Origin: Chrysiogenes arsenatis DSM 11915
GTDB lineage: Bacteria; Chrysiogenota; Chrysiogenetes; Chrysiogenales; Chrysiogenaceae
Assembly (NCBI RefSeq): GCF_000469585.1
Contig: NZ_AWNK01000009.1
Coordinates: 1-64,000 of the forward strand
Direction of reading: 5' to 3'
Length of the DNA: 64,000 nucleotides
In this document: piece by piece, positions 41,197-61,177 of the stretch
Numbering within the stretch: the first letter of the stretch is position 1
Layout: each line of letters begins with the position of its first letter
Position numbers and translations under genes: made by a program
Notes under the pieces: model-generated
Seen by the model: only the letters and a program-made list of their open reading frames with translations
Database searches by the model: none
Told to the model about the DNA's origin: nothing

Positions 41197-42141
41197 CTAA
41201 CGACGACCGAAATATTTACTTTCCGGCGTTATCGACACGAGAAATTGATTGGCATTGGAAGCGACTCCATAAGGAGTGACCCCCGTACCTTCGGCGGTTG
41301 CCTCTATATAGAAGCCCGTTCCGGCTTGCAAAATATAGGGAATCCACAGGAGATCTGTGCGGATGGCACGTCCATCCCCTTTGACGGCAAAAAAGCTGTA
41401 CACTTCCATATCGTCTGTGTTGACTTTGCGTATGGAGGTCGCCATCCCCATTTCAGGAAGTTCAGCATTTTGACTCAACGACTGAAATTTAGCTGTGGTA
41501 ATTGCAAAAAGGCGCTCAAAGTTACCGGATGTTTTCGTTTGATTGGCTTTTTCAACACGGTTTGTACTCATTCGTACGAGGACATGTGTGGTGCCATTTT
41601 GGTAGTGATATAAAAACGGGGTGCGAATCGATGAATTAGCCGTCGAAAAAATCCCACTTTGATACGAAAATGGCTCAGGAAGCATGCCTGTTGCGACGCC
41701 AGGAATGATAACGGGCAGCGGCAACGGAGAAAAGCTGACTTCGCGCACCTCAAGACATGCATTTTCATGTGAAGGGGCAATACGCAAACTTACCGGTTGC
41801 AATGTGTTTTGGTCGAAAGTGTTGGTCGATGGGGTGAAGTTTTCGTTTTCAGACGTTTCGCGGTAGATGGCCAGCTCGTAAGTATCATTTGCAAGCGAGA
41901 GCATCAGCCGGACTTCACGTTCATAGATAATTTTTACTGGCGGGCCTGGCAGTTCCGATGTTTCAATTTCACTATAGACCGGGAAAAGTTCAGTGCTGTC
42001 AAACTGCACTGAATTGATGCCGATGCGCGATGATGAAATAGCGAACAATGAGGTTGAATCAGCCGTATCAAGTGTTATTCCATATGCGGAAGCGCTGAAC
42101 AGAGCGAGTGAAAGAGCGATACTTCTAATAATTATTGGCAT
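41197..42141 (-). CDS. Exported protein of unknown family (third gene of a three-gene operon)
   Basis: The 314-residue product has a signal peptide (RSIALSLALFSASAYG, cleavage near residue 22) and a beta-rich mature part without a recognised domain. One cysteine lies in the ENACLEVRE segment. Near its end it has GTGFYIEATAEGTGVTPYG and a final FGRR tail. Its start overlaps the end of the preceding exported protein by ten bases. Three consecutive overlapping exported proteins suggest that they work as one envelope complex, but the function is unknown. Confidence 0.7.
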   Translation of the reverse strand: MPIIIRSIALSLALFSASAYGITLDTADSTSLFAISSSRIGINSVQFDSTELFPVYSEIETSELPGPPVKIIYEREVRLMLSLANDTYELAIYRETSENENFTPSTNTFDQNTLQPVSLRIAPSHENACLEVREVSFSPLPLPVIIPGVATGMLPEPFSYQSGIFSTANSSIRTPFLYHYQNGTTHVLVRMSTNRVEKANQTKTSGNFERLFAITTAKFQSLSQNAELPEMGMATSIRKVNTDDMEVYSFFAVKGDGRAIRTDLLWIPYILQAGTGFYIEATAEGTGVTPYGVASNANQFLVSITPESKYFGRR

Positions 42142-43022
42142 AGCGGTTCCACCTTTGGCGCAAAAGTATACAGCAGGGTGTTGACGCGATTTTCGTTTTC
42201 ACCGTCCACCGTATTGGCATAGTCATAACTATTGGAATGCTTCATATCGAGTATAAAGTACGTGCAACGCAGCGAAGCATTCGTGGTCATTATTTTGGGG
42301 AATATAACAGCAGTACGGCGATATGAGTCGGCGTAAATTCGGTCAAGCTCCGTATCCACAAGATTCTCTTTTCCGCTCATTTCCCACATCACATATCTGG
42401 TATCAGCGAGATAGCCAGGATTTGGGGTAAACGATGTCGAAATAATCTTCTCTGCGTACTCTTTTTCATAGCGAGCAAGAACTTGGGAGAAGAGCGTCGT
42501 GTAATTATCATGCCCAATATTGATATACAGCGCCCCTTTCGGATAGGTATACAACGGTTTATTATGAATATTCGGGATAATTTCTTTCGGAATTTCTTCT
42601 GGTTCCGCATCCAGAAAATGGAGCGAATCCTTCGTGCGTGTGCTGATAGTAAACAATCCCCGTAAATCTATTTCAAAACGGGAATCGCTTGTCCACATTT
42701 CACCCTCTGGATTTGGTGGGCTAAGAAACTGCACTCTTTCGGGGGCAAAGCATTTTTGTTCCTGATTCCAGCCATAATCAATATTCGCCCGAATCACGTC
42801 CCCCGTGGGTGTTACGCCAGGGCTCGCACCACTTGCATCGCGCAAAACAACGCCCTGAGTCGTGACGATGGCAGCAACATCGCTATTTGTAAGTTCAAGC
42901 GTGTTAATCTGAATACTTCGTCCATCAATATAGCGTAAGCTCTCTTGCGTATCGGTCATCGTAAACGCTAAGACAGAAGAAAATCCGGCAAACAAAAAGA
43001 GAGTAATCATTATTGCACGCAT
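42132..43022 (-). CDS. Exported protein of unknown family (second gene of operon)
   Basis: The 296-residue product starts with a signal peptide (MITLFLFAGFSSVLAF). The mature protein is mixed alpha/beta and carries no motif I can name. Notable segments are DGRSIQINTLELTNSD, a KCFAPERVQFLSPPNPEGE stretch and a C-terminal CTYFILDMKHS, with a terminal PLCQ, giving three cysteines that could pair in the periplasm. The ATG at 43022 is preceded by GGAGGCGTT, which fixes the start. Its 5' end overlaps the lipoprotein gene upstream and its 3' end overlaps the next gene. Confidence 0.7.
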   Translation of the reverse strand: MRAIMITLFLFAGFSSVLAFTMTDTQESLRYIDGRSIQINTLELTNSDVAAIVTTQGVVLRDASGASPGVTPTGDVIRANIDYGWNQEQKCFAPERVQFLSPPNPEGEMWTSDSRFEIDLRGLFTISTRTKDSLHFLDAEPEEIPKEIIPNIHNKPLYTYPKGALYINIGHDNYTTLFSQVLARYEKEYAEKIISTSFTPNPGYLADTRYVMWEMSGKENLVDTELDRIYADSYRRTAVIFPKIMTTNASLRCTYFILDMKHSNSYDYANTVDGENENRVNTLLYTFAPKVEPLCQ

Positions 43023-43441
43023 AACGCCTCCGTGCTCGACTGCGTGCAAATGGTCACCTGATCACCATGAAAAACAATTTCATAATCAAGTTTCGTCCCA
43101 TCAGCACTGTATAAAATAGCTGATCCATACTTTTCGCCCGTTGCGGCCAGCGTGTTGACCGTATACAAATAATAATTACCGGACGAAGTAACCATCTGCC
43201 CTGACGCTTGCACGTCTCCACTGCCATTCGCCACCTCAGATACATCGCTCAGCGTTGTAACCGTGCCAACACCTGGCGTTGACGGAATCTGAGAGCCGAT
43301 TGCCATGCTCGTAACATAGGCTGATTGGGTCGGATTTGATGTGATTGGCTTGGGCGGAACGGTGTTAGCGCCTCCCCCACCGCCGCAGCCGCTAAGCAGC
43401 GCTCCGCAGAGGAGGAATCCATAAAGAGTCGTTTTTTGCAT
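43010..43441 (-). CDS. Small lipoprotein of unknown function (first gene of operon)
   Basis: The 143-residue lipoprotein has a signal with lipobox LLSGC, Cys19 being followed by five glycines, then a Pro/Thr linker. The globular part, about residues 45-143, is predicted beta-rich (NYYLYTVNTLAATGEKYGSAI). It ends with two cysteines that may form a disulfide (TICTQSSTEALCVQ). GAGAGG lies upstream of the chosen ATG; the open frame extends further but without a signal peptide. It is divergent from the RidA gene and leads the three-gene exported operon, overlapping the second gene by 13 bases. I do not recognise the family. Confidence 0.7.
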   Translation of the reverse strand: MQKTTLYGFLLCGALLSGCGGGGGANTVPPKPITSNPTQSAYVTSMAIGSQIPSTPGVGTVTTLSDVSEVANGSGDVQASGQMVTSSGNYYLYTVNTLAATGEKYGSAILYSADGTKLDYEIVFHGDQVTICTQSSTEALCVQ

Positions 43442-43574
43442 ACCGTAGAACCTCTCAAAATAGTAGGTATAAAGAAAGAAATGGCGTTGTATACAAGAAA
43501 GTCGTTGCGTCTCACACAGCGAACAGTTAGAAATAGCACCACTGTTTCGTATGATACTACCGGAGGATGATTTT

Positions 43575-43964
43575 ATGAACAAGCAGATTATCGCAACTGA
43601 CCAAGCACCCGCAGCTGTGGGGCCATATGAGCAAGCAATTGTGTACAATGGTGTGTTGTACGCTTCTGGCCAAATCCCACTGAATCTTGCTGGTGAAATG
43701 GTTGCGGGGGATGTGAGCGCTCAGGCACGTCAATGCCTAACGAATCTTCGTGCCGTATGCCAAGCCGCTGGAACTTCGCTTGAGAATGGGTTAAAAATTA
43801 CTATGTTTTTGACTGATATGAACGATTTTGCTGCTGTGAACGCCGTGTATATTGAGTTTTTCACCGGCGCAAAAGCTGCCCGATCTACCATTGCGGTGAA
43901 AGCACTACCAAAAGGTGCACTGGTCGAAATCGAAGGTATATTCGCTGTTCCAACGTCAAAATAA
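43575..43964 (+). CDS. RidA-family enamine/imine deaminase
   Basis: The 129-residue protein forms the trimeric RidA fold and hydrolyses reactive 2-aminoacrylate-type enamines made by PLP enzymes. Diagnostic segments are AVGPYEQAI, YASGQIPLN, the ARSTIAVKALPKGALVEIE stretch with the substrate-binding arginine and glutamate, and the middle NLRAVCQAAG. The start at 43575 is behind CGGAGGATG. It is the first gene of a plus-strand run toward argC, divergent from the exported-protein operon with 133 bases between. Confidence 0.95.
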   Translation: MNKQIIATDQAPAAVGPYEQAIVYNGVLYASGQIPLNLAGEMVAGDVSAQARQCLTNLRAVCQAAGTSLENGLKITMFLTDMNDFAAVNAVYIEFFTGAKAARSTIAVKALPKGALVEIEGIFAVPTSK

Positions 43965-48368: not shown

Positions 48369-51300
48369 TTACAATAGCCCTTTCAGTTCAGCCAAAATAT
48401 CGTGCGCGGTTTGAGTACTCTTCGTCTTCGCTGTGGACTCCGCTTCGTTATTCAATGGTAAATGTTCCTGTAATAAGTGGTTCGCGAGCCCAGCGATCGT
48501 CGGAAAATTAAACAGAGTTGCCACAGTAAGGGAAATTTGAAGCTCCTTCACCAGAGCGTTGCGTAAATCGACCGCCATAAGTGAGTCAAGACCCAGTTCG
48601 ACGAGTGGTGTTGTGGGATTGAGGTGGCTCGCATCGATTCCTATGATGGCGCCTGCTTGTTGTTGAATACAATGAATCATGAGCTGATGGCGCTCTTCTA
48701 ACGTAGCGGTTTGCAATTGTTCGAGTATTGATGCCACCGGTGACGTTGCGGGGTGGTTGTCGTGTGTTTGAGACGAAGTGAGCAGCGAAGCCAGCCAGCG
48801 AGTATTGGAAAGCTGATTGATGCGTGTGTACTGTGTCCAGTCGCAAGCGAGTGCTGCAACAGCGGCGACTCTTGATTGTTGCGCCTGCTGCAGAAGTGAC
48901 ACAAGAGCGTGCGGTGGAAGATAACGAAATCCCTGCCGTTCAACCATGCGCCGCACGGTATCCGAGCTTTCTGCCATGCCACCGCCCGCCAGTGGCCCCC
49001 ATGCGATGCTGATCGCCGGAAGTCCATGTTGTTGGCGCAAATACGCCAAGCCATCGAGAAAGGCGTTCGCAGCGGCGTAACCAGCCTGACCGCGGTTGCC
49101 CAGCACTGCCGCCGCAGAGGAAAAGAGTACAAAGCTGTCGAGTTCAAGGTGTGCGGTCAGTTGGTGTATGTGCCACGCCCCAGCACTTTTTGCCCCCAAG
49201 ACTCGCTGGAGTTGTGCGGCGTTGAGTTGTGATAGTGGCGCATCGTCGAGAACGCCAGCGAGGTGAAAAATCCCTTTGAGGGGTGGCACTGTTGCCTGAA
49301 TTGTCTGGAAAAGTTGCTCGCACTCCGACGCCACAGCTACATCAGCACGGAAAAATACCACGTTGGCCGCCGTGCAAAGCGACGCTATCCGTGCGGCAAC
49401 CGCGCCAGTAGGAGCATGTCGTCCGACAAGAGCGAGGTGTTTAGCCCCTGCCGCAACACAGGCTTCGGCCAATGCCAAACCAAGCGCGCCTGTGCCACCA
49501 CTGATCAGATAGGTCGCCTCTGATTTGAGCGCGAACGCGGGATTGGTCTGTTTTGGTGCAAGGCGAACGACACGTGGCAGCCAAAGTTGAGTGCCACGGA
49601 TGACCCCTTCCCGCTCTCCTTGTGGGTCGGCGACAAATGCGACGAGCGTAGCGAGCGCGGCCACCGACAATCGATGTTCAAGATCGATACTGCCACCCCA
49701 GAAGTGCGGGTATTCCAAAGCAGCGCTGCGCGCAAACCCTTGCCATGCGGATTGAAATGGATCTATCGCGACGTTCTGGCGCGGCGTGGCGTTTGTGGTG
49801 ATAAGCCAAAAGCGCAGAGCAATGGGCTGTGGGACGCGTTCACCGATCTGGGCAATCACTGCTGCTGCATGGGCAAGCGATTCGGCCAGAGCATGAACGT
49901 CGTTTTCGTTTTGCGGCACAGGTGTAAAGTACAACAGAATTTTTCCCTCTAGGTGTGGCAACCACCGATCAACTCTTTCGGGAACTGCAACTTCGCATGT
50001 GCCACCAAGCTTGAGAATGCCAGCTGCATAGAGGTCGGTGGTACTGCTTTCGCCTAACAACAGAAATGACGCGTTTGCCACATCGCCATGCGGCATGGTT
50101 TCCTGCCACGTGACTTGATAGAGGAGATCAGCATGCGTGTCAGACGCAAAGAGAGTCTGGCGATCCGTGCGCCGCAAACTAAACCCTGTGATAGCCAGTA
50201 AATGCGTACCGTCAGCCGCATAAACATTGACGTCACCCTCAATGGCATCGCCAGTCGTTTGCGAGCGGGAGTGACACCAAATTTCTGCAGTAAACGGAGC
50301 GAGAAGATGAATCTGCAGCGCACCCATCGGGATATAAATGCGCTCACCACCTTCGATGGCCTGTCGGAATTCGTCTGAGGCGGAGGCCATACTTTGCAGA
50401 ATAGCATCCATCAACCCCGGATCGGGTGCACCGCCATCCACAACACCTTCAAGCCGACATAACGATTCGTCATCTCCCGCAAATATCTCGCGAATACGAC
50501 GATACGATGACCCAACACGATAGCCAGCGGCCAGAAAAGCGTTGTAAAATGATGTAGGATCGTGCGCAACCGTACAGCGTTGGCGCAGGTTTGCGAGCGA
50601 TGCGACGGGTGATGGTGGTGTGGCAGGAACCACCGTTGCCTGACAATGTTCCTGCCATTCGGTTTTTGCTTCACCGTGGGCGCGGCTCACAATGCGCGCC
50701 GCGCGCGTAGATTGATGGCTTGGAGCGCCAAGTATTACCTGCACGTCACGCCCGGCCTGATCGACCAGGAGTGGACGGACGAAGTGGACATCCTGCAGCC
50801 GTAGCGGCGTTCCTCCTTCATCACAAACCGCGAGCCCAGCGGCCAGCAACATACAGATATGCGCGGCGGCAGGCGAAAGGACACGATCAAAGATGATGTG
50901 TTCCGCTAAAAATTGCGGTGTATCCGGCGTAAAATGGGTTTCAAACAGCACTCCATCGCCCAACGCTGGCGACTCAATGCGGGTGCCGAGCAGCGGATGA
51001 CCGTGACGCACCAGCGATGCGGTGAGAGTAACGGCTGGTGGTTGCGGCGTTGTCCAATATGGTGTCCGCTGAAACGGGTAGGTTGGCAGCGTCGCCGTCC
51101 GTCTTCCAGATTCTGAGTAATACACCGCACTGGAAGCAAGGTTGCGTTCGATACAGTGGCACAATGACGTTGCACTCTGCTGGAGATCATCCTGACCAGC
51201 GCGGAGGCTGGGAAGCCATTCCACATGAGCCATTTCCCCCATCATTTTGCCAAAACCACAGAGCACGGGAGTAGGGCCTATTTCAAGGAATGTTGTATAC

Positions 51301-54300
51301 CCATCTTGTAAAAGCGTTTGTAAAGCATCGGCAAAGCGTACCGGTTCGCGCAACTGGCGTCGCCAGTACGCAGGTGTACAAAGGTCGCCGTTTTCAGCTA
51401 TTTTTCCGCTCAAAGTTGATACTATGGGGAATTGCGTGGAATTCATAGGGACAGTAGCCGCAGCCGCTTCAAAGTCACGTACGATTGGTTCCATCGCCGG
51501 CGAGTGGAAGGGGTGCGATACGGTCAGGTAACGGGCACTTTTGCCCATCGCTTCATACTGCCGAACGATCTGGTGCACCGCTTCGGCGTCGCCAGAAATA
51601 ACCACACTCTGCGGCGTGTTCACGGCTGCAATCGCCACGCGGTCGCTGACCCCAGCTAGCAGCGGCAGCACCTCACGTTCCGTCGCCTGCAGCATCACCA
51701 TCACCCCACCTGTAGGCAAAGAGTCCATCAGTTGTGCCCGCCGCGCGACAAGCCACACGGCATCGGGTAGCGACATCACTCCAGCTATGCAGGCGGCGGC
51801 AAATTCGCCAATGCTATGGCCGATAGCGGCAGCTGGAGTCACCCCCCATGATTGCCACAAGGCGCAGAGGGCGTATTGCAGGGTAAACAGTGCGGGCTGA
51901 GTATAGACTGTGCGCGCCAGAAGTGCCGCATCGTTTCCATACATAATGGCGCGAATGGAACATCCAAGGTGAGGTGCGAAGAGTTGGTCGCACTCGTCAA
52001 CCGCTTGTTGAAAGCAAGGCCACGCGCGATACAACCCCTGACTCATGCCGGGGTACTGTGACCCTTGTCCGGTGAACAGAAAAACAACTCCCTTGGTATG
52101 GGAAGCATCAGGAGATTGATTGACAGTAGTCAGACGTTTGCGCAATGCCTCAGCCAGCTCTGCAAACGTCTGGCCAGCGACCGCCAGACGTGCCGGAAAC
52201 CGAGTGCGCCCGTGGGCGGCGGTGCGGCAAAATTCGCCGACGGTGCCGGTAGCCGTTTGAAGCGTATCAAGGTAGCGTTTACCTGCTGCTTGCAGTGCGC
52301 CTGGAGTCCGTGCTGAAATTTCAAGAATGTGACACGGAAGATCCTGCGGCGGAGCCACGGGAGTCGTTACGGGAGCTTCTTCGATAATCACATGAGCGTT
52401 CGTACCGCTAAAGCCAAACCCACTGAGCGCGGCACGGCGCGGGGCGGTCGATGGCGGCCACGGTGTTGCGTGCGTGACGATTTGGAGCGGCAACGTTTCC
52501 CACGCAATATGGGGATTTGGTGCCTGAAAAGCAGCTTGCGGCGGAATCGTGCCGTGTTGCAGCGCCAGCACGACTTTGAGCAAGCTCGCCATCCCCGCAG
52601 CTCCTTCAAGGTGCCCGATGTTCCCTTTCACCGAACCAAGCAAGAGTGGCCGTTTACTCGTACGGTTCTGGCCATACACACCACTGATGCCGGAAACTTC
52701 GACGGGATCGCCAAGCGGTGTGCCCGTGCCATGCGCTTCGATATAGTCAATATCAGCCGGGTGCAAGTTGGCATCGGCCAAGGCGCGCTGAATTACTTGT
52801 TGCTGCGCTAAACCACTGGGAGCGGTGAAGCTGGAACTCGCACCGTCTTGCCCAATAGCGCTCCCACGTATGATGGCCAAAATAGTGTCGCCATCGCGCT
52901 GCGCATCGGAAAGTCGCTTCAGCAACACCGCGCCACACCCTTCACCGCGACCATAGCCGTTGGCCGCGGCATCAAAAGGCTTGCAACGTCCATCGGGCGA
53001 GAGAGCGCCGAGTTTTGAGAAGTAAACAAATAAGTGTGGTGACAACAGTAAATTGACACCAGCCGCCAGCGCCGCCGTACATTCGCCAAGCCGTAGTGCT
53101 TGACAAGCGAGGTGCAGGGCGACCAGCGATGAAGAACAGGCGGTATCGACCGACAGATTCGGCCCCGTAAAATCAAGAATGTACGAGAGACGTCCACCGG
53201 AAGAGCTAAACATTGAACCTGATCCGGAGTAGGCATCAATGCGGTCAAGCGTGCCGGAATAGAGGTGAGCCGTTTTGTAGTCATCCGAGCAGATCCCCAG
53301 ATAGACGCCAACATTTTCCCCTTTGAGTTTTTCCAGCGGGATATTGGCGTGCTCGATGGTTTCCCACGCAACTTCCAAGAGTAAACGCTGTTGCGGATCA
53401 AGGGCGCGGGCTTCGCGGGGAGGAATGCGGAAAAATGGCGCGTCGAATTGATCGAGCTGATCTGGCACCAGAAAACCACCGTGCTTCACTGTGCTTTTCC
53501 CCGGCACTTCCGGATTGGGATCGTAATATTCCGCAACATCCCAACGGATGGTCGGGATTTCGGAAATGGCAACGGCACCACGTTTCAAAAGATCCCAATA
53601 CTCCTGCGGCGAATTCGCTCCACCCGGAAAACGGCACCCCATACCAATAATGGCGATAGGTTCATTGTTTTCTGCATGGTGCGAGAGTGCGGCTTCCGGT
53701 TTTACTGTTGTCACTCGACCAAGGCATTTTTCAAGATGAGCGGCCAACGTGGCTGGTGTGGCATGATCGAAGAGTGTCGTAACAGGGAGCGTGAGGCCAA
53801 GTGACGCTTCGAGTTGCCGCGTAATCACGATACTCATCAACGAATCGACGCCCTGATCAAAAAAACCGGTGTGCGGATCGACGGTGTGGAGATCGTTGTT
53901 ACTCGCTTTGCGAATAACTTGTTGGATATGTGCAAGTAGGTCAGGAATATCTTGGGTGGGCGCGGTGGCGCGAGGAGCATTGTACTGTTCTGCGGCACAT
54001 TGAATAGAGGCGCTTTCGTCGCCTCTCGCTTCACGCCAGCATTCATGGAGGGCAACCTGCAAAACGGGATGCGGCGAAACTTCGATGAAATGGGAAGAAC
54101 CATCGCGCAAGAGCGCAGCCATTGCCGTTGCAAATTGAACCGGTTCGCGGAGGTGTCGCACCCAATACTCAGCTCCAAAGTCGCTGGCATGAGCCTGAGC
54201 ACCACGCCAAGACGAATAGATAGGCGTATGTGGGGTTTGTGGCGCAATGCCATGCAAAGCCTTATAAAATCCTGCTAAGGCGGGATCAACGTGCGCGCTA

Positions 54301-54893
54301 TGAAAGGCCACATCAGTGGGCAGTTCGCGGTGAAATATCTGGCGCTGTTCGAAGAGCGCCAGCGCAGCAGCGATCCCGTGATCACCTGAAAATACCACCG
54401 AGCGCGGACTATTGATGGCAGCAATCGTTAGTGGTAACCCTTCTGAGTCGAGAAACGATTGCGCTTCATCGGCTGACAGGGCGGCAAACACCATGCGACC
54501 ACGGCCACCTATTTGCTGCATCACACGGCAGTGAGCGGCAATGATCGTGACGGCGTCTGGCAATGTGAGGATGCCTGCAATATGCGCGGCGGCTACTTCG
54601 CCCCCGCTATGCCCCAGCACCGCCGTTGGCTTCAGACCGCGCGCCGCCAGTTGTTGCGTCAGACCGAGTTGAACAGCAAAAATAATCGGATGCGCTACCC
54701 AAGGGATATGAAAACGCGAGTTTTCCGCCGAAGCGCCTATTTCATCGTGGAGTGATATACCAATCGCTTCACGAAACAGTGGCGTAAGTTGCTCTACGAC
54801 GGCGCGAATATGCGGATTTGTGTGCAGCACATCGGCACTGGTCTCTTTCCATTGCGCCCCCATGCCGGAATAGATAAACGCGCGTTGTTGCAT
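48369..54893 (-). CDS. Type I polyketide synthase, AT-ACP-KS-AT-DH-KR-ACP
   Basis: The 2174-residue megasynthase has, in order: AT1 about residues 4-290 (GHSGG, Ser96); ACP1 317-392 (Ser351); KS 410-840 with Cys586, His721 and His761; AT2 935-1230 (GHSIG, Ser1027); DH 1296-1575 with His1332 and Asp1496; KR about 1590-1975 (GGTGALG, Tyr1939, Asn1943); and ACP2 2068-2142 (Ser2104). AT2 keeps the carboxylate-binding Arg1052 and an HPFH motif, which suggests malonyl-CoA. AT1 has His121 there, which suggests a monocarboxylic starter. The KR has an LDD motif (B-type). ER and a fused thioesterase are absent; a type II thioesterase and a PPTase lie upstream in the operon. I chose the ATG at 54893 behind AAGGTG because a longer frame overlaps the previous gene. 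It could act once or iteratively. Confidence 0.95.
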   Translation of the reverse strand: MQQRAFIYSGMGAQWKETSADVLHTNPHIRAVVEQLTPLFREAIGISLHDEIGASAENSRFHIPWVAHPIIFAVQLGLTQQLAARGLKPTAVLGHSGGEVAAAHIAGILTLPDAVTIIAAHCRVMQQIGGRGRMVFAALSADEAQSFLDSEGLPLTIAAINSPRSVVFSGDHGIAAALALFEQRQIFHRELPTDVAFHSAHVDPALAGFYKALHGIAPQTPHTPIYSSWRGAQAHASDFGAEYWVRHLREPVQFATAMAALLRDGSSHFIEVSPHPVLQVALHECWREARGDESASIQCAAEQYNAPRATAPTQDIPDLLAHIQQVIRKASNNDLHTVDPHTGFFDQGVDSLMSIVITRQLEASLGLTLPVTTLFDHATPATLAAHLEKCLGRVTTVKPEAALSHHAENNEPIAIIGMGCRFPGGANSPQEYWDLLKRGAVAISEIPTIRWDVAEYYDPNPEVPGKSTVKHGGFLVPDQLDQFDAPFFRIPPREARALDPQQRLLLEVAWETIEHANIPLEKLKGENVGVYLGICSDDYKTAHLYSGTLDRIDAYSGSGSMFSSSGGRLSYILDFTGPNLSVDTACSSSLVALHLACQALRLGECTAALAAGVNLLLSPHLFVYFSKLGALSPDGRCKPFDAAANGYGRGEGCGAVLLKRLSDAQRDGDTILAIIRGSAIGQDGASSSFTAPSGLAQQQVIQRALADANLHPADIDYIEAHGTGTPLGDPVEVSGISGVYGQNRTSKRPLLLGSVKGNIGHLEGAAGMASLLKVVLALQHGTIPPQAAFQAPNPHIAWETLPLQIVTHATPWPPSTAPRRAALSGFGFSGTNAHVIIEEAPVTTPVAPPQDLPCHILEISARTPGALQAAGKRYLDTLQTATGTVGEFCRTAAHGRTRFPARLAVAGQTFAELAEALRKRLTTVNQSPDASHTKGVVFLFTGQGSQYPGMSQGLYRAWPCFQQAVDECDQLFAPHLGCSIRAIMYGNDAALLARTVYTQPALFTLQYALCALWQSWGVTPAAAIGHSIGEFAAACIAGVMSLPDAVWLVARRAQLMDSLPTGGVMVMLQATEREVLPLLAGVSDRVAIAAVNTPQSVVISGDAEAVHQIVRQYEAMGKSARYLTVSHPFHSPAMEPIVRDFEAAAATVPMNSTQFPIVSTLSGKIAENGDLCTPAYWRRQLREPVRFADALQTLLQDGYTTFLEIGPTPVLCGFGKMMGEMAHVEWLPSLRAGQDDLQQSATSLCHCIERNLASSAVYYSESGRRTATLPTYPFQRTPYWTTPQPPAVTLTASLVRHGHPLLGTRIESPALGDGVLFETHFTPDTPQFLAEHIIFDRVLSPAAAHICMLLAAGLAVCDEGGTPLRLQDVHFVRPLLVDQAGRDVQVILGAPSHQSTRAARIVSRAHGEAKTEWQEHCQATVVPATPPSPVASLANLRQRCTVAHDPTSFYNAFLAAGYRVGSSYRRIREIFAGDDESLCRLEGVVDGGAPDPGLMDAILQSMASASDEFRQAIEGGERIYIPMGALQIHLLAPFTAEIWCHSRSQTTGDAIEGDVNVYAADGTHLLAITGFSLRRTDRQTLFASDTHADLLYQVTWQETMPHGDVANASFLLLGESSTTDLYAAGILKLGGTCEVAVPERVDRWLPHLEGKILLYFTPVPQNENDVHALAESLAHAAAVIAQIGERVPQPIALRFWLITTNATPRQNVAIDPFQSAWQGFARSAALEYPHFWGGSIDLEHRLSVAALATLVAFVADPQGEREGVIRGTQLWLPRVVRLAPKQTNPAFALKSEATYLISGGTGALGLALAEACVAAGAKHLALVGRHAPTGAVAARIASLCTAANVVFFRADVAVASECEQLFQTIQATVPPLKGIFHLAGVLDDAPLSQLNAAQLQRVLGAKSAGAWHIHQLTAHLELDSFVLFSSAAAVLGNRGQAGYAAANAFLDGLAYLRQQHGLPAISIAWGPLAGGGMAESSDTVRRMVERQGFRYLPPHALVSLLQQAQQSRVAAVAALACDWTQYTRINQLSNTRWLASLLTSSQTHDNHPATSPVASILEQLQTATLEERHQLMIHCIQQQAGAIIGIDASHLNPTTPLVELGLDSLMAVDLRNALVKELQISLTVATLFNFPTIAGLANHLLQEHLPLNNEAESTAKTKSTQTAHDILAELKGLL

Positions 54894-54901
54894 ATGTTTC
54901 A

Positions 54902-54907
54902 CACCTT
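54902..54907 (-). promoter_or_regulatory. Ribosome-binding site of the PKS gene
   Basis: AAGGTG on the minus strand is eight bases before the ATG at 54893. It supports that start over the upstream frame opening at 54971, which would run into the coding region of the preceding gene. Confidence 0.55.
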
Positions 54908-54927
54908 GAGTGCTTTTTCGGGCACGG

Positions 54928-56511
54928 TTATTGTTTGATCGAAGGTAATGTGGTGGCCTTCTCTTCTCCATGAGTCAACATGTGAATGATCGTATTGATG
55001 AGGCCGCTATTCAGGTCGGAACGGACAGCAATTTCTTGGGTAGACGGTTGCACTCTGGCGGCAATGGCACCCACTTTGTAAAGTGTATCGGGCGGCAACG
55101 TTGCGATCGTCACACCTAAATTATTCGGATCACTTTCAAAATACGAATAACGGTTGGTCATCACCACGATGTATGCGTCGAGCGGGGCCAGCCAGTAGGA
55201 CGCAACGTTATAGCCCGCAAATTGCCCACTGTGACCAAAAAGTGAGTTGTCGATGCGAGCCAGTCCGCGCGCGTACTGAAATGTCGTGTTGGGGTCGAGT
55301 GGTGCTCCACTCACCCAGTAGGCAGATTCCTGACGGCTTTGCACGCGACTAACCATGACATGCTGCAGAAATTTCATCAGGTCAGAGGCGTTAGAAACCA
55401 TCCCGCCGGTTGTCCACGCAAAGGAGGGATCAACTTCAGAGAAGTCTTCCAGTGTGCCATCACCATTGATGTAGGGTTGTGCGAGCAGGGTACTGTCGGG
55501 TGTGTCATTGGTGCGGAATTTGAGAAGATCGGTGTCAGATGAATCGTAGGGAGCATTAAAATAATCAGCATACCCGTGAACAAAAGGCGCACCACCACGG
55601 AATTGCCGTTCACCCGGAATAGGTAAATAGGTTTGGGTCAGGTTGAGTGGCGCGGTGATCAGGCGCGCAACTTCGTCATGCACGGGATTACCCGTGGCTT
55701 TTTCAATGATCAGTCCGAGCAAATAATAATTGGTGTTGGAATATTTAACGGTTGATCCGGGAGAAGAGGTCGGATTGGTTCCGTAAGGGGTGCCGACACT
55801 ATCGCCAGTAGCCGTTGTGAAAGAGGCTGGTGCATCAAACGTATCAACGAATCCGAGTATTTCGCTGCTGTCCCACGTTTTTTGTCCGTGACTCATCACA
55901 AATTGATTCATCGGCATTTGCATGTCGGGCGAATCCCCGTGCACCAGACGCGCATCGGTGGTCACATAGCTATACAGGCCACTGGTGTGGTTGAGCAGCA
56001 TGCCAATGGTAATCACACTTCCCTTGCCGGCGTTGATACCGGTCAACGTGCCAGGCAACCATTTTTCAACGGTATCACTCAAGGAGAGTTTCCCTTCGGC
56101 GGCGAGTTTAACGACGACATCAGCAATAAACATTTTTGTGACACTGGCAATGCGAAACGGCAAATCAATGGTCATAGGCGTATAACAGGTGTTCGGAGCG
56201 GCAGTATCAATTTCCGCGCATCCGACGGCATAATACCACGGTTGATAACCGTTCAGGTGAACCGCCACAATGGCGCCGGGGGTTTGGCTACCGGTGGCAT
56301 TGTGATAGTATTGGTTCGTGCCATAAAAATAATCATTTACCGATTGTTGCAGTGCGGCATTCGTAGTCGCTGTCACAGGAGGCGGCGTGGAAGCATCACC
56401 GGAAATATAATTTTCCCCTCCACCGCATCCAATAAGCGTGAAGAGTAAAACAGTACAGAGTGTGACCCAAATACGTGAACCAGTGGAAGCAAGCAGAGTG
56501 CATGTTGGCAT
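54928..56511 (-). CDS. Beta-lactamase-fold serine hydrolase lipoprotein in the PKS cluster
   Basis: The 527-residue lipoprotein (lipobox LIGC, Cys29, then three glycines) carries a class C beta-lactamase/D-Ala-D-Ala peptidase-like domain, about residues 60-450. The three active-site motifs are present: SVTK (SxxK) in RIASVTKMF, YSN in VKYSNTNYYLLG, and HSG in LFGHSGQFAG. Family members include esterases, peptidases and, in polyketide pathways such as that of lovastatin, acyltransferases. Its place between the aminomutase homologue and the PKS, in one operon, suggests periplasmic maturation, hydrolysis or self-protection for the product. AGGAG lies seven bases before the ATG, and the PKS starts 34 bases after the stop. 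Confidence 0.9.
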   Translation of the reverse strand: MPTCTLLASTGSRIWVTLCTVLLFTLIGCGGGENYISGDASTPPPVTATTNAALQQSVNDYFYGTNQYYHNATGSQTPGAIVAVHLNGYQPWYYAVGCAEIDTAAPNTCYTPMTIDLPFRIASVTKMFIADVVVKLAAEGKLSLSDTVEKWLPGTLTGINAGKGSVITIGMLLNHTSGLYSYVTTDARLVHGDSPDMQMPMNQFVMSHGQKTWDSSEILGFVDTFDAPASFTTATGDSVGTPYGTNPTSSPGSTVKYSNTNYYLLGLIIEKATGNPVHDEVARLITAPLNLTQTYLPIPGERQFRGGAPFVHGYADYFNAPYDSSDTDLLKFRTNDTPDSTLLAQPYINGDGTLEDFSEVDPSFAWTTGGMVSNASDLMKFLQHVMVSRVQSRQESAYWVSGAPLDPNTTFQYARGLARIDNSLFGHSGQFAGYNVASYWLAPLDAYIVVMTNRYSYFESDPNNLGVTIATLPPDTLYKVGAIAARVQPSTQEIAVRSDLNSGLINTIIHMLTHGEEKATTLPSIKQ

Positions 56512-56528
56512 ACGTTTCTCCTGTGTCG

Positions 56529-57833
56529 CTAGGCGGATGAGCCGCTGTTAGGTGAAAAGAACGGAACGTCCTGAGGGCGTAATGGTCGTAAATCACTGAA
56601 CCAATCGGCATTTGCATCGTATTCAGCACAAAAAATCCGCAAAACCTGTGCCGCATCTGGCGACTGCAGGTAGCGCAGCAACAGGGCAGGTTTCCCGTTG
56701 ATCTCTTGCACATCGACCACTTGCACTTTGCCATGTGGGGTAGACATACATGGCCCACGCGCCGTGCGACAAATGCCACTGACGTTCCCCCAGGCGGTGC
56801 GGTAGATTTCAAGCGCTTCGACTAAAGGGACGCGGAAATAGTGACGCGCTCCGGTATCGCGCACGATAAATTGATAGTATGGGATGATTCCAAGGCGAAC
56901 TTGCTCTTGCCAGAGGTCGACCCATGTTGTCGCTTCGGCATTGATATGGCGGAGTAACGGTGACTGTGCGCGAATTTCAGCTCCCGTGGCTCGTATACGT
57001 TGAACGGCCTGCTGTACGGCTGGTGTGGCAAGTTCACGCGGGTGGTTCATATTGGCGACAATAGCAAGATGTTTTCCACTCGCAATAATGCGCTCAAAAG
57101 TTTGCAAAAGAGAGTCGGCGTCAGGGTCGGTCAGGAAACGATATGGCCAATAGGTAATGGCTTTGGTGCCAAATCTGATGGCATTCAAATGGGGAATATT
57201 AGCAGCAAGAATTTTATCCACATATTCGGCAAGTATGTGAGCGGGCATCACCATTGGATCGCCACCAGTAAACAGGATATCGCGCACTTCTTGGTGCTGT
57301 GCCACATACTGCACCAGGGCGTTGATATCGGTGCTAACAAAAATTTCTTTTTCTCCGCCAACAAATTGGAGCCAACGGAAGCAAAACGTACAATGGGCAT
57401 GGCACATTTGCCCTTCAGCGGCAAAGAAAAGGACAGTTTCGGGGTAGGAATGGATAATTCCCTGCTGTTTTAATCCGTCAATAATCGGCAAGGTAGCATC
57501 CATGGTTTGTACGGAATGGGGGTTCAAATCCTGTCGAATTTCGCGCACCGCACGAGCAATGACCTGTTCCGTTTCGCCTTGGTGGAGTAACGATGCCAGC
57601 CGTTGATAATGATGTGGCTGGAGCATGTCACGGTTAGGAAAATTTAAACGGTACATGGGATCTGATTCGGGATGCTTCCAGTCGATAACTTCATCGACCA
57701 TGTATCGGTTCGTGCGGAAGGGAAACACGCGCCCAACCACAGCCGTAGCTTCCTGCAATTCAGCCGAAAGGTGTTGCCACTGCGGTAACGTGTGAATCGT
57801 TTCTCGGGTATAGGCACGAAATGTTTTTTGCAC
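56529..57833 (-). CDS. KamA-family radical SAM (lysine 2,3-aminomutase-like) enzyme
   Basis: The 434-residue protein aligns along its length with lysine 2,3-aminomutases, which move an amino group from C2 to C3 with SAM, an iron-sulfur cluster and PLP. The radical SAM cysteines are Cys144, Cys148 and Cys151 (CX3CX2C), followed by FTGGDPM. Lys369 in STPHGKV fits the PLP lysine. By eye, Arg325 takes the place of the substrate-binding Asp293 of the clostridial enzyme and the second Asp is not kept, so lysine is unlikely as substrate. An acidic substrate such as glutamate would fit Arg better. The start is GTG, 13 bases after the outer-membrane protein stop. It could supply a beta-amino acid to the PKS. 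Confidence 0.87.
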   Translation of the reverse strand: MQKTFRAYTRETIHTLPQWQHLSAELQEATAVVGRVFPFRTNRYMVDEVIDWKHPESDPMYRLNFPNRDMLQPHHYQRLASLLHQGETEQVIARAVREIRQDLNPHSVQTMDATLPIIDGLKQQGIIHSYPETVLFFAAEGQMCHAHCTFCFRWLQFVGGEKEIFVSTDINALVQYVAQHQEVRDILFTGGDPMVMPAHILAEYVDKILAANIPHLNAIRFGTKAITYWPYRFLTDPDADSLLQTFERIIASGKHLAIVANMNHPRELATPAVQQAVQRIRATGAEIRAQSPLLRHINAEATTWVDLWQEQVRLGIIPYYQFIVRDTGARHYFRVPLVEALEIYRTAWGNVSGICRTARGPCMSTPHGKVQVVDVQEINGKPALLLRYLQSPDAAQVLRIFCAEYDANADWFSDLRPLRPQDVPFFSPNSGSSA

Positions 57834-57846
57834 GGGATGTTATCTC

Positions 57847-58935
57847 TCAGTAGGCAAATTTAAATCCGGTTAAAAATTCGGTGTCCCGTTTTGCGGCAAC
57901 CGGCCAAGGGTTATTGTCAAACGCGACGGCGTACTGAATCAGAAAACCGACGTATTGATTGAGGGAAAATTCGAGGCTGTTTGTCCAACGCCAGTCATAG
58001 CGCTTAGTAGTACCAAGGATGATTGCTTTTTGTTCATCAAGGCCGGCTTGAGGGATGGTGGTTAACCCGTAAATATTGGTAGCGTCCAGGGCGCGCTTCA
58101 TGTTGAATTCCTGGCGGTAACGCAACATGTCAGTGAGGCGATGCGTGTAATCGGCACGGAGGTAGATACCATCATATTTTTCTGAATCATTCTGAATTAA
58201 GGTAGCAACCATCGGTGCGTACTCGTCGGAAATACGACCCAGTCCGAGGCGTATACCAAGGCGGTAGCGATTTTTGTCAACAACATCTTGCAGCACATTG
58301 TACGAACCGACACCCACAAAAGGGATAGTACGACTTTGAATGAAAATGGGGCTTAAACGCTGCCAAAACAGGCCTGCTTCGGCAAAAAGATAGCGGTTCA
58401 ATTCGTACTGCAAGGTTTCTTCAAAATTCTGCACGTCTTTTTCTGAGACATTGCCGTCAGGATTTTGAATCTCTTTTTTGTCAATGCTATAGGCTAAATG
58501 GTTCGTGAATCGACCTTTGCGAAGTCCAAGATACATTCCGCCATTTTTGACGGTACCATCGTCGTTGCCACTGAGTTCGGCAAAAGAGAATTTAAGGTGC
58601 GTGTGCTTTAGGAAATATGGGTATTCGGGGCTATATTCGAATGAGCTGTGTTCCCACCACTCTTCGGGTTGATTGGGTTGAAAGGTAGGGTGTGAAAAGA
58701 AACCCTGATACTCGCCGTACGGTTTTTCTGGGTTGATTTGCGGGGGAAGTTTTGGTGCGGATTGAATTTGACGGTACAAGTCGGGATAGTTTTCGCGAAT
58801 GTACTCCGGTGTGAGTTCAAGGCTCTGCGCGGAGGCGGCCGCGAAAAGGCAGAACGTTAAACTGGCCAAGCTCCATCGCAACATTGCCGAAACACGGAAG
58901 GCGGCTGACTTGAAAGGCGGGGTGACTCTCCTCAT
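57847..58935 (-). CDS. Predicted outer-membrane beta-barrel protein in the PKS cluster
   Basis: The 362-residue product has a signal peptide (LRWSLASLTFCLFAAASA, about residues 16-35). The mature protein then has repeated alternating-residue strands rich in Tyr, Phe, Arg and Asp, ending in FLTGFKFAY, the terminal aromatic expected of an outer-membrane barrel. The last 120 residues (RADYTHRLTDMLRYRQEF) resemble DUF481-type salt-inducible barrels, but only loosely. The start ATG follows AAAGGAG and overlaps the PPTase stop by four bases; an open frame upstream is not used. It may export or tether the product, or be an accessory without direct role in synthesis. Confidence 0.78.
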   Translation of the reverse strand: MRRVTPPFKSAAFRVSAMLRWSLASLTFCLFAAASAQSLELTPEYIRENYPDLYRQIQSAPKLPPQINPEKPYGEYQGFFSHPTFQPNQPEEWWEHSSFEYSPEYPYFLKHTHLKFSFAELSGNDDGTVKNGGMYLGLRKGRFTNHLAYSIDKKEIQNPDGNVSEKDVQNFEETLQYELNRYLFAEAGLFWQRLSPIFIQSRTIPFVGVGSYNVLQDVVDKNRYRLGIRLGLGRISDEYAPMVATLIQNDSEKYDGIYLRADYTHRLTDMLRYRQEFNMKRALDATNIYGLTTIPQAGLDEQKAIILGTTKRYDWRWTNSLEFSLNQYVGFLIQYAVAFDNNPWPVAAKRDTEFLTGFKFAY

Positions 58936-59615
58936 ACTTGCTCCTTTGCACTCCATGGCGTTAAACCGTGACGAGAAAGATAGATGCGCTCTATAACACA
59001 CGAAGATGGCTTTTCAGTAGTCGCAACATGAGCACAATAGTCGAATCCGCAGGAGAATTGCCGGATATGCCAACGCTCATGGTGTACGGTAGCCGTGTCC
59101 TCCTTGATAATGACTTCTTCCAGCGGCAGAAGTAACCCTTGGCCAGTACCTTTCAGAACAGCCTCTTTCGCCGTCCAGTAGGTATAAAACTGACGTTGGC
59201 GCGCGGCGGGGTCGAGCGCTTTGAGTTCCGGCAAATGTCCCACGAACTCATCAAATGCGATCGGACGAATCTGCTCAACATCAACGCCTACCTTACCCGA
59301 GCTGGCACATGCAAGCACGACGACCGCTCCTGAGTGGGAGATATTAAACGACCAAGCACCTGCAATGAAAGGTTTTTTTGTATCAGTGTAGGTAATATTT
59401 TCTAAAGGATTGCAGAGTGTTACGTGTCGCGCGCCGCGTTGCTCTATCGCATAGAGCAACAGAAGTTTGCCAAGTAGCGTAGCACGTTGATCTTCCGGGC
59501 GTCGATAACGATGACATTGCTTTTGGAGTGGCTCAGGAAGAAGGGCAAGCAAAGAGTGTTGCTGAGTCGCCGAGAGTGGAGCATCGCACGCGATCCAAAA
59601 GATTTGCAATTTCAT
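58932..59615 (-). CDS. Sfp-type 4'-phosphopantetheinyl transferase
   Basis: The 227-residue enzyme transfers phosphopantetheine from CoA to the ACP serines (Ser351 and Ser2104 of the PKS here). The family signatures are both complete: GVDVE at residues 110-114 with metal-binding Asp and Glu, and WTAKEAVLK at 147-155. The N-terminal half shows the pseudo-dimeric fold (WSFNISHSG). The length is that of two-domain Sfp enzymes that act on secondary metabolism, not the short AcpS. The start codon overlaps the thioesterase stop (ATGA), and the stop overlaps the next gene. Confidence 0.96.
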   Translation of the reverse strand: MKLQIFWIACDAPLSATQQHSLLALLPEPLQKQCHRYRRPEDQRATLLGKLLLLYAIEQRGARHVTLCNPLENITYTDTKKPFIAGAWSFNISHSGAVVVLACASSGKVGVDVEQIRPIAFDEFVGHLPELKALDPAARQRQFYTYWTAKEAVLKGTGQGLLLPLEEVIIKEDTATVHHERWHIRQFSCGFDYCAHVATTEKPSSCVIERIYLSRHGLTPWSAKEQV

Positions 59616-60334
59616 GCTTCGGCCAAAGTCGCTTGTATGAGGGTGCCGATGGCATCGACATGGTCAAAAAGGAAAAAATGACCTCCAGTATACGTGACAA
59701 CGCGACAAGCACGGCTGGTATATTTCTGCCACTGCCACGCCTGTGCAAGGGTCGTACTTTCCTGATCGCCGATCAGGACTGTAATGGGAACTGGCAGAGG
59801 TGGTAACGCGGCGTGCTGATATTCTGCTACCACACGCATGTCATCGCGAATAATCGGCGCAAAATACTCCATCAATTCACGGTCATTAGCAACAGCTGGC
59901 GGGCACCCGCCTAACGTGATAAGTTTTTGCTTAAATTCTTCTAAGGGAAGAGTATACCAGCGAGCCTCGACGCTTGTTTGATCCGGAGCACCTTTGCCCG
60001 AAAGAAAAAGATGGCGGGGAAGTGGAAGATTGTTTTGCATCAACTTGTGCGTGGCCAAATAGATAACCAATGCCCCCATGCTGTGACCAAAAAGTGCATA
60101 GGGCTGCTGAATGGATGGAGCCAGTTGCGAGGTCAAATCAGACGCCATGGCGTCGATATCAGTCAGGCGCGGCTCCTGCCCTCGGCGCCCCCGACCAGGA
60201 GGCTCAAAGGTGACGACAGGCACCGTTGGTGATATGTTTTGTGCCAGTGGGCGGTAGGAATACACATTGCCACCGGCAAAGGGAAAACAGAAAAGTGATG
60301 TGGTTAAGTGAATCATACTCTTGCTTTCGAACAC
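59612..60334 (-). CDS. Type II thioesterase
   Basis: The 240-residue alpha/beta hydrolase removes stalled or mis-primed acyl groups from PKS/NRPS carrier proteins or releases the product. It shows LFCFPFAGGN near residue 14, the nucleophile Ser85 in GHSMG, Asp190 in LIGDQE and His219 in TGGHFFLF. This is the GrsT/RifR pattern. Because the PKS lacks a fused thioesterase, this enzyme may be the only hydrolytic release step. The start is either GTG at 60334 or ATG at 60316; both have weak ribosome sites. It lies 11 bases after the SET-domain gene. Confidence 0.93.
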   Translation of the reverse strand: MFESKSMIHLTTSLFCFPFAGGNVYSYRPLAQNISPTVPVVTFEPPGRGRRGQEPRLTDIDAMASDLTSQLAPSIQQPYALFGHSMGALVIYLATHKLMQNNLPLPRHLFLSGKGAPDQTSVEARWYTLPLEEFKQKLITLGGCPPAVANDRELMEYFAPIIRDDMRVVAEYQHAALPPLPVPITVLIGDQESTTLAQAWQWQKYTSRACRVVTYTGGHFFLFDHVDAIGTLIQATLAEA

Positions 60335-60345
60335 GAATCGTTTCT

Positions 60346-60846
60346 CTATATAGCTGAGGTAAGAGCTTCGCGCTGGTGAATTTGCGTTGCTATTTGCAGC
60401 ATCGTTTCACTTGAGCGCAATAATTTTTCAGCCCACGAAAGCCCAATGATCGGTTGATGCGTAACCGAGTCGCAAAAAGGGAGTTTAACCTCCGGTCCCA
60501 ATAAATATCGATAATCGACTGTGATCTCTTCTCCTTGCAATAAATCCCTTTGGGCAAACAGAAAACCTAAATGCCACAGACAACTCGGGGTGAATGAATG
60601 ATTGACAAAGCACTCGTCAGGCCATTCAGGGGATATTGTGCAATGGTTTTCGAACCAGCGAATCGATGATTCCGCATGCGGATGGTCGGGCACGGCAGTG
60701 AGTTCTTCAAGCGTAATAGTTTCGCTGATATGAGTTGGTGCAACAACGACCCTGCCGATATCAACTTTTTCAGACACAAAAAGCCCTTTTCCAGCCAGAG
60801 GAATTAACGAGTCGGCAACGTAATACGGGATATTTATCATGTCCAC
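60346..60846 (-). CDS. SET-domain protein leading the PKS operon
   Basis: The 166-residue protein has a small SET domain, the fold of SAM-dependent lysine methyltransferases. Visible parts are the N-terminal PLAGKGLFVSEKVDIG strand pair, an NHSFTPS motif at residues 82-88 (standing for NHSCxPN) and GEEITVDYRYLLGP at 105-118, with the pseudoknot tyrosine. Bacterial SET proteins outside pathogens are mostly uncharacterised; some occur in biosynthetic clusters. TAGGAGTGG precedes the ATG. As first gene of the operon its product could methylate a small molecule or a pathway protein, but neither is shown. Confidence 0.85.
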   Translation of the reverse strand: MDMINIPYYVADSLIPLAGKGLFVSEKVDIGRVVVAPTHISETITLEELTAVPDHPHAESSIRWFENHCTISPEWPDECFVNHSFTPSCLWHLGFLFAQRDLLQGEEITVDYRYLLGPEVKLPFCDSVTHQPIIGLSWAEKLLRSSETMLQIATQIHQREALTSAI

Positions 60847-61083: not shown

Positions 61084-61177
61084 TGGCGGAGAGCGAGGGA
61101 TTCGAACCCTCGATACCGCTATTAGCAGTATACTCGCTTAGCAGGCGAGCGCCTTCGACCTACTCGGCCAGCTCTCC
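61084..61177 (-). tRNA. tRNA-Ser, anticodon GCU
   Basis: On the minus strand a 94-base tRNA folds with acceptor stem GGAGAGC/GCTCTCC, an anticodon stem CTCGC/GCGAG around CTGCTAA (anticodon GCT), the long variable arm of class II tRNAs and a T arm with GGTTCGAATCC. CCA is encoded at 61084-61086. It reads AGC and AGU serine codons. Confidence 0.95.

Follow-up and report, generated by a model that had tools for sequence, protein, structure and literature searches.

A putative beta-amino acyl pentapeptide pathway distributed over four loci of Chrysiogenes arsenatis

In the mycosubtilin/iturin pathways, the hybrid synthase MycA (ketosynthase (KS)-acyl carrier protein (ACP)-aminotransferase-condensation (C)-adenylation (A, Asn)-peptidyl carrier protein (PCP)-C) beta-aminates the acyl chain and adds Asn, and is followed by two further nonribosomal peptide synthetase (NRPS) proteins with a terminal thioesterase (TE) (PMC4219810). 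The puwainaphycin pathway of cyanobacteria is also a polyketide synthase (PKS)-NRPS line, initiated by a fatty acyl-AMP ligase (FAAL); its beta-amino acyl peptide contains Thr and Asn and forms a ten-residue ring (PMC4219810). Here we analyse an operon (positions 48369-60846, minus strand) in a stretch of 64,000 nucleotides, hereafter the window, which corresponds to positions 1 to 64,000 of contig NZ_AWNK01000009.1 of Chrysiogenes arsenatis DSM 11915 (genome of 2.83 Mb in 22 contigs; contig C7 in our numbering). This operon likely encodes the chain-initiating synthase and the accessory proteins of a single hybrid PKS-NRPS line whose genes are dispersed over the genome. The whole is best read as a beta-amino acyl pentapeptide pathway, whose hybrid synthase would be kin to those of iturin and puwainaphycin and whose combination of accessory enzymes appears to be new. 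The initial annotation of the window knew of no described pathway with this combination, and we found none in the literature searched, in which subscription journals were mostly outside coverage; nor did this literature yield a paper on a Chrysiogenes product or on KamA in a PKS/NRPS cluster.

The seven minus-strand genes with touching or overlapping ends described by the initial annotation were all present at the positions given, and profile searches upheld their domain assignments. From upstream to downstream (AT, acyltransferase; DH, dehydratase; KR, ketoreductase; SAM, S-adenosylmethionine; PLP, pyridoxal 5'-phosphate) they are:

60346..60846, minus strand: SET-domain protein (PF00856, E=7e-7), adjoining the pathway and not kept with it
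59612..60334, minus strand: stand-alone (type II) thioesterase, TE II (PF00975)
58932..59615, minus strand: Sfp-type 4'-phosphopantetheinyl transferase, PPTase (PF01648)
57847..58935, minus strand: DUF481-type predicted outer-membrane beta-barrel protein with a signal peptide (PF04338)
56529..57833, minus strand: KamA-family radical SAM/PLP enzyme, a predicted aminomutase with a substrate other than lysine (TIGR00238 match below cutoff)
54928..56511, minus strand: S12 serine peptidase-like lipoprotein of beta-lactamase fold (PF00144; lipobox LIGC; SVTK, YSN and HSG motifs)
48369..54893, minus strand: PKS1, loading AT-ACP-KS-AT(malonyl)-DH-KR-ACP with a C-terminal docking tail and without TE

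A search of 84,980 species genomes with the KamA-like protein returned 31 loci. One of these (L015), in a Desulfuromonadaceae metagenome-assembled genome (MAG; G040), carries TE, PPTase, outer-membrane protein, KamA, S12 lipoprotein and PKS1 in the order and orientation of the host. Thus six of the seven genes recur, with their order unchanged, in a member of a different phylum, at identities of 58% (TE), 43% (PPTase), 52% (outer-membrane protein), 66% (KamA), 50% (S12) and 59% (PKS1, over 1652 aa). Judged from these sequences, the recurrence of the six-gene set far exceeds chance, and it bears out the initial annotation in treating the KamA-like enzyme, the lipoprotein and the outer-membrane protein as pathway members, since they are kept with PKS1 in both phyla. 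The remaining 30 loci contain no relative of PKS1 or of any other operon protein. The SET gene is missing from L015, and searches of four relatives and of plasmids did not reveal it; we therefore rejected it as a pathway member, and its earlier inclusion in the cluster is doubtful, as it is not conserved with the other six genes.

No close KamA match was found in two genomes of the same family (represented in the search set by two other genera) or in the other relatives tested. A full-length outer-membrane protein occurs in a single genome out of the 51 in the host's phylum; in the MAG's class (277 genomes), the MAG alone has it at a comparable level. Such patchy occurrence across phyla suggests horizontal transfer. 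A plasmid origin was rejected, with 0 matches to the outer-membrane protein in 72,556 plasmids, and an empty-site test on the two other same-family genomes gave no demonstrable insertion site, gene order around pepA not being conserved. Upstream of the MAG operon (L015:879-4681) lie an ABC exporter-like gene (SyrD-like by reading) and genes for an SPFH/Band 7 protein and a LivK-like binding protein, which are all absent from the host operon.

The beta-barrel assignment of the outer-membrane protein derives from its match to PF04338/DUF481 at 29.2 bits (gathering threshold 21.1; E=1e-6), which its homologues match at 71.2 and 41.5 bits (E=2e-19 and 2e-10). Diverged relatives are present in three further genomes: G042, with TE, ParA-like, DUF697 and NRPS genes; G144, with ParA-like, DUF697, NRPS and S12 lipoprotein genes; and G519, beside ABC transporter, condensation-domain and KS genes (sequence reading). 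Because barrel relatives recur in these three other NRPS/PKS loci, the envelope parts are, on gene content, recurring companions of PKS/NRPS genes and not chance neighbours, and the SET gene falls outside the companion set. From this association the barrel likely has a role in export or placement of the product, and would serve its passage across, or its placement at, the outer membrane. One might instead see the KamA-like enzyme, the lipoprotein and the barrel as general-metabolism or envelope proteins captured in the operon, the KamA clade being a housekeeping one: its close relatives (39-47% identity; Bacteroidales, Thiodiazotropha and others) have genes of primary metabolism or for flavodoxin-domain reductases as neighbours and lack a homologue of this PKS in their vicinity, and SET resembles a plain bystander. 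However, all three stay with PKS1 in identical order in two phyla, and one of the three further barrel loci also has an S12 lipoprotein, so that we consider such a capture unlikely.

In two genomes of the MAG's class, a ParA-like ATPase, a DUF697 protein, a DUF481 barrel and an NRPS are encoded in one block (L084:4117-9085 and L085:130-9440), one block with a TE and the other with an S12 lipoprotein, and these look like an envelope cassette that recurs among loci for nonribosomal peptides.

Whole-genome searches of the host identified type I KS domains in PKS1, PKS2 and a hybrid synthase only, and six condensation-type domains only, in the hybrid synthase, NRPS2 and NRPS3. The remaining KS-like matches belong to a fatty-acid-type ORF on contig C22 and to a separate aryl-polyene-like set on contig C3. 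The synthases other than PKS1 are located as follows (ER, enoylreductase):

Host contig C7, 84824-91237: PKS2, KS-AT-DH-ER-KR-ACP
Host contig C7, 91740-99650: hybrid synthase, KS-ACP-aminotransferase-C-A-PCP-C (PF00109, PF00202, PF00668 and PF00501 in order)
Host contig C2, 14283-22376: NRPS2, adjoining an AsnB-like gene
Host contig C1, 103700-110692: NRPS3, with a terminal TE

A gene for a DUF697 protein lies between PKS2 and the hybrid synthase, and the latter has its PLP lysine motif GKAIGGG at 929. G040 possesses orthologues of all the synthases and no further condensation domains; identity is 52% for the hybrid, 78% for AsnB and 67% for NRPS2 (over 2763 aa), and 61% and 69% for the partial NRPS3 and PKS2. 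The host links PKS2 to the hybrid and AsnB to NRPS2, and the MAG links PKS1 to PKS2 (which starts 4 bp after PKS1 in L015 and has an N-terminal docking helix), the hybrid to AsnB, and NRPS2 to NRPS3. Combining the two sets of links therefore gives one colinear chain, PKS1-PKS2-hybrid-AsnB-NRPS2-NRPS3. We infer that this was an ancestral cluster, later split differently in each lineage, the breaks in the MAG being less certain because it is a draft. The self-contained small-polyketide cluster proposed by the initial annotation thus gives way to a five-synthase PKS-NRPS line of which the operon would be the front part. The physical separation of the loci in the host, and their location on separate contigs in G040, might be taken to indicate two or more independent, co-occurring pathways, i.e. 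an operon product plus a separately initiated PKS2-hybrid-NRPS lipopeptide. This is quite unlikely, since PKS1 and PKS2 are adjacent in G040 and PKS2 and the hybrid in the host, PKS2, which lacks a loading domain, depends on a donor upstream of it, and there is no other condensation domain in either genome and no other type I KS in the host. Between the MAG hybrid synthase and AsnB (L075:12045-14078) we also observed a P-type ATPase-like protein, with an N-terminal region without assigned role.

For the single distributed line, the domain content leads us to propose the following course. PKS1 would load a non-carboxylated acyl-CoA and add one enoyl C2 unit: its loading AT has His at the position of the malonate-binding Arg, which both extender ATs keep, and the starter is therefore probably an ordinary acyl-CoA. 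PKS2 would add a saturated C2 unit, and the hybrid synthase a third one, whose beta-keto group would be converted into a beta-amine by its own aminotransferase domain before the addition of Asn. NRPS2 would then add a residue X and D-Thr, the Thr module bearing an embedded radical SAM/B12 domain, and NRPS3 Gly and an aromatic residue, whereupon the TE would release the chain. The operon PPTase would prime the carrier proteins and TE II clear blocked ones. The A-domain codes are DLTKVGEVC (host) or DMANIGEVC (G040) for the hybrid, EAKQFSLLL for NRPS2 A1 (residue X) and DFWNIGMVH for NRPS2 A2; we take the hybrid code to mean Asn, that of NRPS2 A2 Thr, and those of NRPS3 a Gly-like and an aromatic residue. 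NRPS2 ends in an epimerisation-type (E-type) condensation domain, and the second condensation domain of the hybrid, after the PCP of the Asn module, has the motif HHIIADG and is read as C, not E. The predicted product is 3-amino-6-enoyl-Asn-X-D-Thr-Gly-(Tyr/Phe), with a 3-amino-alk-6-enoyl chain whose length would be set by the starter. The line thus probably makes a previously undescribed five-residue peptide with a short beta-amino acyl tail.

The domain order of the hybrid synthase, its predicted beta-amination and Asn addition, and the two NRPS proteins and terminal TE that follow are all shared with mycosubtilin/iturin. In contrast to those systems, the hybrid begins with KS and has no acyl-AMP ligase, the chain being built by two PKS proteins from a loading AT-ACP; the host genes are spread over four loci; and the KamA-family enzyme, the S12 lipoprotein, the DUF481 barrel and the radical-SAM-interrupted A domain are additional. 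Iturin-type products are cyclic lipopeptides closed through the beta-amine; in the host line, NRPS3 ends in a TE. Like that of puwainaphycin, the host PKS-NRPS line would make a beta-amino acyl peptide containing both Thr and Asn, as opposed to the FAAL initiation and ten-residue ring of that pathway, in which, to our knowledge, neither KamA nor a radical SAM domain is known.

The catalytic motifs of the S12 lipoprotein are complete (S123VTK, Y257SN and H427SG). By sequence comparison, its nearest solved relatives are alkaline D-peptidase and D-Ala-D-Ala carboxypeptidases, ClbP and beta-lactamases being far weaker matches. It shares with D-stereospecific S12 peptidases (alkaline D-peptidase, 4y7p; also the BogQ type, likened by description only) the SxxK/YxN/HxG serine hydrolase motifs and a predicted D-residue in the product, but is a lipoprotein inside a biosynthetic operon and could trim instead of destroy. 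D-stereospecific peptidases are established factors of resistance to nonribosomal peptides (reference 28 in PMC6095874). Given the predicted D-Thr and the closest kinship to D-peptidases, the simplest role would be that of a D-peptidase in the envelope, which trims the D-Thr peptide or inactivates it by destroying it. A ClbP-like, prodrug-activating peptidase cutting an N-acyl-D-amino leader in the periplasm would share the fold and the envelope location, and an Asn module does come after the acyl chain; yet ClbP matches only distantly (E=1e-9, D-peptidases reaching 1e-34). Moreover, the N-acyl-D-Asn leader of ClbP-type systems is made by an early C-A(Asn)-PCP-E module, and the Asn module here has no epimerisation domain, so that no such leader is predicted and a ClbP-like function is very unlikely.

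The KamA-like enzyme belongs to a clade of proteins of ~430 residues with members in Bacteroidales, Thiodiazotropha and others. Cys144, Cys148 and Cys151, Arg153 and Lys369 are invariant in 14/14 aligned sequences. In the Clostridium enzyme, we take Asp293 and Asp330 to bind the lysine side chain, Arg134 to be the carboxylate Arg and Lys337 the PLP lysine. In the same alignment, the position of Asp293 is occupied by Arg325, invariant in the clade, and that of Asp330 by residue 362, which is variable and is Cys here. The protein scores 110.8 bits against a cutoff of 525.4 for TIGR03820, and the Arg, Glu and EpmB equivalogs failed as well. An AlphaFold2 (AF2) model (predicted local distance difference test, pLDDT, 86.8) has 2a5h as its best structural match by a wide margin (E=4.5e-19; template modelling score, TM, 0.62-0.69). 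The protein therefore resembles lysine 2,3-aminomutase KamA/AblA (PDB 2a5h) in fold, CX3CX2C motif and equivalents of Arg134 and PLP Lys337, and differs from it by Arg and Cys in place of Asp293/Asp330, by having no zinc-site tail, and by scores far below every aminomutase equivalog cutoff. Because the cluster cysteines and the PLP lysine are kept, the lysine-binding Asp residues are lost and the fold is that of 2a5h, we predict that it works as an aminomutase, and the label lysine aminomutase is unwarranted.

Its product for the line would then be a beta-amino acid distinct from beta-lysine, the best guess being beta-glutamate for X. An acidic substrate for the clade is a reasonable, if weak, guess: Arg325 resembles the basic residue, Lys, that glutamate 2,3-aminomutase presumably also has at the first Asp, and a Lys at position 239 of NRPS2 A1 fits. 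As a guide to function, the genes next to KamA relatives were not decisive: they encode either flavodoxin-domain reductases (in Bacteroidales) or housekeeping proteins of various kinds. We observed a flavodoxin-domain reductase-like gene directly after the KamA-clade gene in L016, L017, L021, L025, L027, L032, L037 and L039 (Bacteroidales and a Spirochaeta MAG), and the two may form an electron donor pair.

The beta-amino starter suggested by the initial annotation is also unlikely: the starter AT, without the malonate-binding Arg, is of an ordinary acyl type, the hybrid's own aminotransferase domain can account for the beta-amine, and the KamA clade lacks both lysine-binding Asp. That PKS1 alone makes a small, short, envelope-associated polyketide from a beta-amino starter supplied by the KamA enzyme is highly improbable. 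In its favour, enzymes of the KamA family, to which the fold match points, make beta-amino acids, and the operon, which includes a PPTase and a thioesterase, forms a compact and self-contained unit within the window. Against it, PKS1 has no TE and is followed in G040 by PKS2 with its docking helix, a ligase for free beta-amino acid starters is missing from the operon, both Asp residues are gone from the KamA clade, and the one other genome found to bear the operon has orthologues of the host's further PKS/NRPS genes.

The Thr A domain of NRPS2 contains, between motifs a2 and a3, a radical SAM and B12-binding insert of ~530 residues (host contig C2:17979-19568; Radical_SAM, PF04055, E=7e-18; B12-binding, PF02310, E=1e-11). 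Pieces of PF00501, with the A motifs intact, flank it on both sides, and it precedes the a3 motif YLLYTSGSTGTPKG. The insert is 76% identical in G040, above the identity of NRPS2 as a whole, and in sequence comparisons its closest solved structure is that of the radical SAM enzyme AprD4, which takes part in apramycin biosynthesis. In a search of the G040 phylum (395 genomes), a synthetase-embedded radical SAM insert was found in G040 only, the other matches being separate proteins of 428-670 aa aligned over the radical SAM core only. Known interrupted A domains such as TioN, MarQ and KtzH also have an auxiliary enzyme inserted between a2 and a3 (PMC11355689), but that of NRPS2 consists of a radical SAM core and a B12-binding domain. 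The inserts listed in a 2024 review of A domains are methyltransferases, oxidases and ketoreductases, and the word 'radical' is absent from it (PMC11355689); in the literature searched we found no paper on a radical-SAM-interrupted A domain. Such an insert is without precedent in the genomes and literature searched. Tentatively, the pathway might combine two kinds of radical SAM enzymes unseen in peptide synthetase pathways, a KamA-clade acidic-pocket aminomutase providing beta-glutamate to A1 (EAKQFSLLL) and an embedded radical SAM/B12 domain modifying the activated or carrier-bound Thr.

Several points weigh against a single distributed line with the steps and roles proposed here. The four host loci are far apart: housekeeping genes spanning 24 kb separate two of them, and the others are on different contigs. 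The G040 loci, three in number, likewise fall on different contigs of a MAG in draft state, and neither genome shows the whole line as physically contiguous. The KS-ACP module of the hybrid has no AT, and FabD is the only other AT in the host genome; iturin-type systems likewise use an AT in trans. Concerning specificity, the A-domain codes, read against a PheA fragment, are provisional, no known code matches that of NRPS2 A1, and the Asn-module code of the hybrid differs between host and G040. The Arg of KamA and Lys239 of A1 are all that points, weakly, to beta-glutamate. The AF2 model of the outer-membrane protein, built from two sequences, is unusable (pLDDT 32.8). Finally, domain content, gene order, conservation in two phyla and the loss of the lysine-binding residues are read directly from the sequences, whereas module order, substrates, product and the roles of KamA, lipoprotein and barrel are proposals built on them.

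Concerning the limits of the operon, the junctions read from the sequence are a gap of 11 bp between SET and TE, an overlap between TE and PPTase, and a gap of 17 bp between KamA and the lipoprotein. For the outer-membrane protein, the most likely start is ATG 58935 and not GTG 59001, given the ATGA overlap with the PPTase stop, and for PKS1 it is ATG 54893 and not 54971, as the former aligns with the start of the G040 homologue. nadB lies downstream. GC content is ~56% over PKS1 and ~49% around it, as expected for PKS genes or acquired DNA. Directly upstream, outside the pathway, is one further feature:

61084..61177, minus strand: tRNA-Ser(GCT)

An RNA-family search upstream of the operon returned this tRNA alone, and consensus scans for promoters and terminators gave nothing above shuffled sequence; co-transcription is therefore deduced from spacing and conserved order only. 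Of the single transcript proposed initially, the close spacing and the order kept in the other phylum speak in favour, whereas no promoter or terminator signal accompanies it and the membership of SET is doubtful.

Elsewhere in the window (41197-43648), three adjacent minus-strand ORFs encoding exported or lipoprotein-like proteins of no obvious family lie between metH and argC. The aryl-polyene-like set on host contig C3 (258114-292545) includes, by sequence reading, several FabF/KR/thioesterase-type genes, a HAL/PAL-like lyase, an AMP ligase and exporter-like genes, and may serve pigment formation in this organism. In and beside it lie four ORFs of the B12-binding radical SAM type (C3:268227-269699 and 273705-277812; sequence reading).

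The predicted line would represent a complete, undescribed natural-product pathway in Chrysiogenota, a phylum for which the literature search gave no described product. Reading window by window or contig by contig would make a single, broken assembly line look like a number of small clusters. Should the radical SAM/B12 insert prove active, it would add a radical-chemistry class to interrupted A domains, which otherwise contain methyltransferases, oxidases and ketoreductases. The KamA clade, in which Arg and Cys replace both lysine-reading Asp, offers a direct test of shifts in aminomutase substrate choice, and the DUF481 barrel, found beside other PKS/NRPS genes, may provide a lead on how products are transported to the outer membrane in Gram-negative anaerobes.

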